Positions 7,969 to 9,486 of a stretch of 54,549 nucleotides of DNA are shown piece after piece (position 1 is the first letter of the stretch; every line of letters begins with the position of its first letter). This DNA comes from Thermohalobacter berrensis (GTDB lineage: Bacteria; Bacillota; Clostridia; Tissierellales; Thermohalobacteraceae). The stretch spans positions 1 through 54,549 of the forward strand of contig NZ_MCIB01000014.1 of assembly GCF_003609645.1 (NCBI RefSeq), read 5' to 3'. The notes beneath the pieces are model-generated. The model had not been told where the DNA came from. It searched no databases and was given only the letters and a program-made list of their open reading frames with translations. Made by a program: the position numbers and the translations under genes.

Positions 7969-8171
7969 AGTATCACCTTCTTTATTTTTTTCTCATTTTA
8001 GTTTTTCAAATAAAAACAAAATAAATACAAAAAAGATAGTATTATCAAATAAATAGACTATGTTTTTAGTACTGATTTTTAAAAGTTTTCTATTTTACCT
8101 AAAATTTTAAGTTTATTTTGGAAAGTTAATGATAAAACTAACACTAAGAAAGTGTGAAAGGAGGAAATTTT
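7969..8171. other. Divergent promoter region without clear signals
   Basis: About 200 bases of AT-rich DNA between the hydrogenase gene (minus) and the peroxiredoxin gene (plus). It must hold both promoters. I see no CRP/FNR-type palindrome and no clear PerR box here. The peroxiredoxin ribosome site AAAGGAGGAAA is at 8157-8167. Confidence 0.5.
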
Positions 8172-8675
8172 TTGGTAAGAATTGGACAACATGCTCCAGA
8201 ATTTGAACTTCCTAGTACCCATGATAAAGATATTTCTTTAAGGGATTATAGAGGTAAATGGGTTGTATTATTCTTTTATCCACTAGACTTCACTCCTGTC
8301 TGAAGTACAGAGGTTCCAGAGTTTAATCGTAGATTAGATGATTTTAAGCGATTAAACTCAGCTGTATTAGGTATTAATACAGACAGTATTCCAACACATA
8401 AAGCTTGGATTGAAAGCTTAGGTGGGATAGACTATCCACTGTTAGCCGATTATGATAAAGAAGTAACCAAATCCTATGGTGTTTTCTTTGATGAAGCCGG
8501 TGGTATTGCTTTAAGAGGTACCTTTATAATAGACCCAGAGGGCGTAGTACAGCATATTTCTATCAACAATCTTGATGTTGGAAGAAGTGTAACAGAAGTG
8601 TTAAGAACCCTTAAGGCTTGCCAAACAGGCGCAGCATGTCCTGTTGACTGGGATGAAGGTCAAGAAACTTTATAA
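8172..8675 (+). CDS. prxU: Selenocysteine-containing peroxiredoxin (in-frame UGA = Sec44)
   Basis: A 167-residue peroxiredoxin of the AhpC/TSA fold, missed by ordinary ORF calling because codon 44 is TGA (8301-8303). The frame is open on both sides and reads [12 protein letters not shown], so UGA falls exactly at the peroxidatic cysteine; the fold otherwise runs to TAA at 8673. C150 and C156 (A-A-C-P-V-D-W) are candidate resolving cysteines. It should reduce H2O2 or organic peroxides with a thiol donor. A perfect 11-bp hairpin follows the UGA at SECIS distance. The start is TTG at 8172 with AGGAGG seven bases upstream. Sec peroxiredoxins (PrxU) are known from anaerobic Clostridia. selA/selB/selC are not in the window and would have to exist elsewhere. 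Confidence 0.92.
8319..8359 (+). promoter_or_regulatory. SECIS-like hairpin of the selenoprotein mRNA
   Basis: GAGTTTAATCG (8319-8329) and CGATTAAACTC (8349-8359) are exact 11-nt complements, closing a 19-nt loop. The stem begins 15 bases after the UGA at 8301-8303, within the coding region, as bacterial SECIS elements do. The loop is larger than in the E. coli fdhF element; clostridial SECIS elements vary widely, so the SelB-binding details are inferred. Confidence 0.8.
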
Positions 8676-8676
8676 A

Positions 8677-8706
8677 AATAAGGCACTTTTTTGTGCCTTA
8701 TTTTTC
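8677..8706 (+). terminator. Terminator of prxU
   Basis: ATAAGGCAC-TTTTTT-GTGCCTTAT stem-loop followed by TTTTT directly after the stop codon. Confidence 0.92.
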
Positions 8707-8823: not shown

Positions 8824-9486
8824 ATGAGTAGATTTTTAGCACCAATACACTTTTGGTTATTTAATAAGATTAAACTTTATGAGAAATTAGAATATGAAAT
8901 AGTTGAAAATATTGAAAAAGAACTTAGTGCTAACATATCTGATATAGTATCAGATTTAAGAAATAAAATTGGAAACCCTATTGAAGATAAACCTCTAGAT
9001 GAATTGATTGATACTAATAATATCCATGGCTGGCTTCAAAATAAAATTAATATTGCAGAAACTAGACAGGCGGCACTTATAACTGAAATAATTAAGAAAT
9101 TTGGAGATAAAGGATTAAATATTGTAAAAGAAAGCTATAAAGACCAAGCTATTAGATGTGGAAAAGAGGCTAGCAAGGAACTTGATGTTTCAACAGCTCC
9201 TTCCCTTTACAAGGCATTAAATAACTATATTTTAGATGGTATGCCATGTGATAATGTAAATAATATAACTATAGAAGAAAACGATAGACTTCAATGGAAG
9301 GTAGTAAATTGTCTTCATAAAGGTTACTGGGAAGAAGTAGAAGGAGATATAAACATTCTTTATGAATTGCGTGAAATATGGATATCCAATTTTATAAGAA
9401 ATGCAAATCCAGATTTTGACTATCAATTTAAAATAGATAAAATAGATGATAGGAAGATACTAGTACATGAAATTAAGAGAATTTAA
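8824..9486 (+). CDS. Conserved protein of unknown function in the stress island
   Basis: A 220-residue soluble, mostly helical protein; I do not recognise the family. It starts with a distinctive aromatic segment (F-L-A-P-I-H-F-W-L-F-N-K), has no signal peptide, and contains three scattered cysteines (in I-R-C-G-K, M-P-C-D-N and V-N-C-L-H), not arranged as a metal motif. It sits 12 bases ahead of a DUF1858 redox protein with a good ribosome site, so the two are co-transcribed. Its promoter carries a CRP/FNR-type site at the class II position, which ties it to the nitrosative/oxygen stress genes next door. A partner of DUF1858 or Hcp is a guess only. Confidence 0.8.
   Translation: MSRFLAPIHFWLFNKIKLYEKLEYEIVENIEKELSANISDIVSDLRNKIGNPIEDKPLDELIDTNNIHGWLQNKINIAETRQAALITEIIKKFGDKGLNIVKESYKDQAIRCGKEASKELDVSTAPSLYKALNNYILDGMPCDNVNNITIEENDRLQWKVVNCLHKGYWEEVEGDINILYELREIWISNFIRNANPDFDYQFKIDKIDDRKILVHEIKRI

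Follow-up and report, generated by a model that had tools for sequence, protein, structure and literature searches.

Positions 8172–8675 (+ strand) of the window, by which is meant the whole 54,549-nucleotide stretch of Thermohalobacter berrensis DNA analysed here (contig NZ_MCIB01000014.1), probably encode (at roughly 0.8) a selenocysteine (Sec) typical 2-Cys (Prx1/AhpC-type) peroxiredoxin, in which an in-frame UGA would be decoded via SelB and a downstream hairpin and Cys156 would be the resolving residue. That the gene encodes a selenoprotein peroxiredoxin is, as a claim on its own, very probable on the sequence evidence; the full statement is held less firmly, as it also covers the 2-Cys step, whose 1-Cys rival is unlikely and yet carries some weight. 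According to the proposed mechanism, SelB with Sec-tRNA(UCA) would read the UGA at 8301 as Sec, aided by an mRNA hairpin just downstream; by analogy with the family, Sec44 would be the residue that attacks the substrate (hydrogen peroxide or an organic peroxide), turning into a selenenic acid in the process; Cys156 from the partner subunit would then resolve this to a selenenylsulfide, which a thioredoxin-type reductant may reduce in turn. The features concerned are:

8159..8164, + strand: ribosome-binding site AGGAGG, spaced 7 nt from the TTG start
8172..8675, + strand: predicted selenoprotein peroxiredoxin gene encoding 167 residues between a TTG start and a TAA stop, with Sec as residue 44, assigned from Pfam and PDB sequence matches
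8301..8303, + strand: in-frame UGA, predicted Sec codon at the peroxidatic position, from translation and alignment with relatives
8319..8359, + strand: 11-bp hairpin, alternative candidate SECIS, with arms at 8319–8329 and 8349–8359 and a further inner stem; the predicted dominant fold
8322..8338, + strand: conserved proximal hairpin, candidate SECIS, with a 7-bp stem (8322–8328 / 8332–8338) and the triloop GTA (8329–8331)
8637..8639, + strand: codon of Cys156, in the resolving-Cys column of 2-Cys peroxiredoxins (C156-P157 invariant in 20 rows and matching C-P in two PDB chains)
8674..8705, no strand assigned: palindromic hairpin of 13 bp, one arm T-rich, terminator-like on both strands, found by eye and overlapping the stop codon

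Gene structure and protein family

Translation confirmed the first-pass annotation's description of a frame open from a well-placed TTG at 8172 to the TAA at 8673–8675 and interrupted solely by the TGA at 8301–8303, which lies in the context T-P-V-U-S-T-E. The list of open reading frames of 80 amino acids or more contained none at 8172–8675 on either strand, so that a plain ORF caller misses the peroxiredoxin gene, as had been foreseen for ordinary annotation. The mass of the protein with Sec was computed as ~18.8 kDa, which replaces the earlier figure of ~18.5 kDa. The GC content of the window is 28.9%.

The Pfam AhpC-TSA model matched the window protein with 149.9 bits (cut-off 26), and a sequence search of the PDB returned peroxiredoxins (best E 5.9e-44). 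In a 20-row protein alignment, the peroxidatic column held Cys or Sec in all rows, which places the TGA at the peroxidatic position as first proposed; R115, which we take to be the catalytic Arg of peroxiredoxins, and C156-P157 were invariant. The AhpC-TSA domain, the TxxC/U motif (T-P-V-U) and the Arg that characterize typical 2-Cys peroxiredoxins are thus present, and the position of C156 is that predicted for their C-terminal resolving Cys. An AlphaFold2 monomer model, with Cys replacing Sec, reached a pLDDT of 95.4, and its first Foldseek matches were the typical 2-Cys proteins peroxiredoxin I, PrxA, Prx4 and Prx2, with TM-scores by query of up to 0.96. The earlier label 'PrxU-type' holds in a loose sense: among the NCBIfam models, PrxU (NF040737) gives the window protein its highest score, but at 141.8 bits this falls below the 270-bit cut-off, as do those of four more rows of the Sec clade described below (124.4–138.8 bits), and the name of PrxU equivalog was therefore rejected.

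At E up to 1e-20, the peroxiredoxins of the host genome comprise one Cys and two UGA forms. The Cys form (L012, contig C37:111228–111728) is 51% identical. The second UGA form (L014, contig C17:21198–21710, in the frame L106:9040–9720) has a U-P-T-E active site, lacks Cys at the resolving position (A-A-P-A-G-W) and scored 181.5 bits against the PrxU model, also under the cut-off of 270.

The peroxiredoxin gene looks monocistronic, being followed by the terminator-like hairpin at 8674–8705 and having, by eye, no neighbour in common with three clade loci. That hairpin was not listed by a terminator scan, and a promoter scan, with 3 found against 4.4 expected, was not used. None of the NCBIfam families matched the 220-residue gene that follows (8824–9486, + strand) at E up to 0.001. 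Inspected by eye, the ORFs listed for the three clade loci (L015, L017 and L020) included no gene that also lies in the window's surroundings, and the neighbourhood was for this reason discarded as a clue to the reductant. Side observations at other loci include, at L020:38–2445 in Lutispora saccharofermentans, a putative selenium transporter of the YedE family (TIGR04112, 516.9 bits) and a member of the cysteine desulfurase family (TIGR01977, 474.7 bits) which resembles the selenocysteine lyase SclA under the cut-off of the latter, both near the Sec peroxiredoxin, as well as antiporter-like membrane proteins, similar by eye and possibly there by chance, near the Alkaliphilus Sec peroxiredoxin (L015:3862–5286) and near L014 (L106:12785–14191).

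Conservation of the UGA and probable selenocysteine decoding

The related loci (n = 95) comprised the best 80 of 564 from a contig search and 15 from genome sets, namely 5 from four family genomes (E up to 1e-20), 4 further from 249 order genomes (E up to 1e-55) and 6 further from 391 class genomes (E up to 1e-57); these are near relatives by design, and a re-fetched copy (L106) was excluded. Among these near-relative loci the aligned codon was TGA in 17 and Cys in 78. The in-frame UGA hence falls at the conserved Cys position of the homologs, one of the marks of a bacterial selenoprotein. A maximum-likelihood tree placed 15 of the 17 UGA rows, the window among them, in one clade (support 97/80), with three Thermoanaerobacterium Cys rows (L018, L019 and L022) as its sister (98/99 for both together). 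The other two UGA rows, L013 (from genome G001) and L014 of the host genome, lay outside the clade on very long branches, in a tree whose bootstrap had not settled. Two pairs in the clade are identical (L015/L107 and L021/L110), leaving 13 distinct sequences of 15. The named rows belong to Alkaliphilus transvaalensis, two Geosporobacter, Lutispora saccharofermentans and two metagenome-assembled genomes titled Clostridiaceae and Clostridia, and the remaining ones to genomes of the window's class. At this codon, UGA is also present in another 12 distinct sequences of the clade, one of which (L017) comes from a complete genome (NZ_CP017269.1). Of the 15 clade rows, 12 had GGAGG in the stretch inspected around the start, 2 had GAGAGG and one (L096) had neither. 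The latter (genome G246, rated 85% complete) also has ~29 residues fewer than L095, in frame before the UGA, through a deletion or an assembly fault. Downstream of the UGA, comparison of the window with L095, its closest relative of full length, gave a dN/dS of 0.181/1.747, and comparison of the two Geosporobacter rows with each other gave 0.021/1.304; purifying selection acts on the codons that follow the UGA.

The window is one contig (C14) of a genome of 2.76 Mb that is rated 100% complete. A search of this genome for selA, selB, selC and selD had been set beforehand as a test of the proposal that the organism decodes UGA as Sec, and all four, the set expected where bacterial selenoproteins are made, were found. 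The tRNA-Sec scored 78.1 bits (above cut-off, anticodon tca), and SelA, SelB and SelD scored 646.3, 376.4 and 411.9 bits, respectively, each above its NCBIfam cut-off; the genes of these three products are adjacent on contig C11, which also carries the tRNA-Sec. SelD itself contains an in-frame UGA (S-G-U-A-A-K), and GrdA of the same genome has one TGA, in C-F-V-U. Together, the tRNA-Sec, the three Sel proteins and the UGA codons in SelD and GrdA indicate that the host genome very probably uses Sec, in support of the proposal.

Explanations in which the UGA is spurious, or is read in another way, were weighed against decoding as Sec. UGA is one base from TGC and TGT, and an error of sequencing or assembly would turn an ordinary Cys peroxiredoxin into the observed frame; such an error at 8301–8303, which the first-pass annotation had itself named as a possible fault, is very unlikely in view of the 12 further distinct clade sequences with the same UGA, the complete genome among them, and of the use of UGA inside SelD and GrdA. 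Hardly any probability attaches either to a decaying gene, in which the UGA would be a true stop, as in the standard code, and the remainder a pseudogene whose function the Cys paralog L012 could cover. Against it stand a frame free of other disruption, the low dN/dS values given above and the Sec machinery in the genome, and it is the conservation of the UGA in the clade combined with the low dN/dS after it that makes both error and pseudogene so improbable. Low-level readthrough of UGA is known to occur, and a near-cognate tRNA might insert Trp or Cys, for example, in place of Sec; the chance of this is very slight, given that the UGA sits exactly on the catalytic Cys column in a genome with tRNA-Sec and SelB.

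A different kind of alternative keeps the selenoprotein peroxiredoxin and changes its chemistry: in a 1-Cys-type mechanism, an external thiol would reduce Sec and Cys156 would not be resolving. Thiols can reduce Sec directly, and the other UGA peroxiredoxin of the host genome has no Cys at the resolving place, both of which favour it, whereas the invariance of C156-P157 across the 20-row alignment argues against it. On balance this mechanism is unlikely, clearly less so than any of the three explanations above, and the 2-Cys reading with Cys156 as the putative resolving residue is preferred.

Overlapping hairpins downstream of the UGA

The exact 11-bp hairpin that had been reported 15 bases after the TGA was confirmed, with GAGTTTAATCG (8319–8329) pairing with CGATTAAACTC (8349–8359). 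Each of its 11 pairs had a predicted probability of 0.97 or more in the window. The fold has an inner stem of 5 bp and, 35 nt past the UGA, an apical loop of 4 nt (UGAU); its energy was -17.3 kcal/mol over 63 nt. When the protein was held fixed and codons were redrawn with the window's usage, 8 of 20,000 synonymous recodings had all 11 Watson-Crick pairs and 3 of 1,000 had an energy as low; the 75-nt stretch from the UGA reached -20.1 kcal/mol (z -4.16), a value that 1 of 200 dinucleotide shuffles equalled. Among the 13 distinct sequences of the clade, this long register paired in 63.6% of cells, more than in slid registers (at most 39.2%), with runs of 7 bp or more in 6 of the 15 clade rows (L010, L015, L107, L016, L017 and L108). 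As an element of the whole clade it was not supported by the shuffle test, in which 331 of 500 shuffles were at least as high and 65 of 500 reached its covariation score.

A shorter hairpin overlaps it. All 7 pairs of this proximal hairpin are present in 11 of the 15 clade rows and in none of the 78 Cys rows, the other four clade rows being without the full stem; its triloop begins with a G, 25 nt past the UGA. In the 13 distinct rows 89.0% of cells were paired (0/500 shuffles as high), the covariation score was reached by 1/500 shuffles and two pairs had changed on both sides, which 48/500 matched, in statistics that ignore kinship and concern a structure picked from the same sequences. The first Arg of the motif F-N-R-R-L is encoded by CGN in all 11 rows with the hairpin, whereas CGN makes up 33 of the 386 Arg codons counted in 35 long ORFs, a usage figure that covers the window alone and not the other species. 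A single Cys row, L019, shares F-N-R-R; it encodes the two Arg residues as AGA AGG and has no proximal hairpin. In the window the hairpin has low stability (-2.3 to -3.6 kcal/mol) and a predicted probability of 0, being outcompeted by the long fold, and it formed in 806 of 20,000 synonymous recodings because it is partly forced by the F-N-R-R-L motif. A looser scan gave a 7-bp candidate in 1 of the 78 Cys rows, and a simple gap-free hairpin scan gave no candidate in 4 of the 15 clade rows. The proximal hairpin is the better-conserved SECIS candidate of the two. This qualifies the first-pass reading: the long hairpin is the predicted dominant fold, but the shorter one that overlaps it is better conserved in the clade.

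In the model of bacterial SECIS elements given in the available passages of one review (PMC13188914), the loop has 3–9 nt with G in its first two bases, the upper stem has 4–16 bp, the UGA lies 16–37 nt from the loop and the energy is at or below -7.5. The proximal hairpin falls within these limits, as far as those passages state them, in loop, stem, G and spacing, and outside them in energy (-3.1 alone). Rfam SECIS_1 had no match in the host genome, a null result that was set aside because the model's control was silent in all 14 genomes. An Rfam scan of 8290–8400 at E up to 10 returned no SECIS family; four matches there to snoRNA and microRNA families, far under the gathering score, were taken as chance. 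Fold energy does not separate the groups, the 78 Cys rows having a mean of -9.9 kcal/mol (sd 4.4) over 63 nt, which lies inside the range of the Sec rows, and when compared with synonymous recodings just 8 of the 17 UGA rows had a z at or below -2.

The two hairpins share a 5' arm (8322–8328) and are mutually exclusive. Rows with the proximal hairpin only are found beside the window (L095 and L096) and further out in the tree, rows with the long register only (L015, L107, L016 and L017) form one group (99/57) that joins the window's trio weakly (93/53), and L108 is able to form both. This distribution suggests that the SECIS may have shifted from one register to the other within the clade, with the window keeping both. 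A far bolder idea, and an improbable one, is that the mRNA acts as a two-state switch between a conserved weak hairpin and a strong hairpin rare in relatives, such that the choice, together with SelB or selenium supply, could set the amount of peroxiredoxin, and that the SECIS of the clade moved register while the protein stayed unchanged. A literature search found nothing on a bacterial SECIS with an alternative conformation.

Relation to known selenoproteins and peroxiredoxins

A selenocysteine peroxiredoxin of Eubacterium acidaminophilum was reportedly described by Sohling and co-workers in 2001, and PrxU is presumably the name of that enzyme. The window protein resembles it, and the NF040737 model, in having its predicted Sec at the TxxU peroxidatic position and in coming from a strict anaerobe; it differs in length, with 167 residues versus 233 model positions. 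Relative to the 2-Cys peroxiredoxin chains from the PDB that were aligned with it, it has several shortened stretches. The three Thermoanaerobacterium proteins of the sister group are similarly short and share the sequence C-S-T-E-I-P-E-F, but use Cys and not Sec. With Prx1, Prx2 and Prx4 the window protein shares the predicted fold (TM-score up to 0.96) and the peroxidatic and resolving positions, whereas it has a predicted Sec at the peroxidatic site and its chain ends a few residues past W-x-x-G.

Peroxiredoxin selenoproteins with TxxU are already known. In the passages available from two surveys, 43 were counted in the Sargasso Sea set (PMC1088965) and 12 in the other, two of them in Alkaliphilus metalliredigenes (PMC1794560), and peroxiredoxin is listed among the known selenoprotein families in the corresponding part of the review (PMC13188914). 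These are PF00578 proteins with TxxU, like the window protein, and the same passages contain no description of its clade or hairpins. The literature searched yielded no paper naming this Sec clade, which does not show that none exists. The window adds a member in a recognisable clade of short selenocysteine peroxiredoxins, a well-defined group overlooked by plain ORF calling, from a genome whose other peroxiredoxins include one with UGA and one with Cys. Since its orthologs fall into two hairpin registers and its closely related sister group uses Cys, the clade is a ready-made set of sequences in which to test the requirements of a bacterial SECIS.
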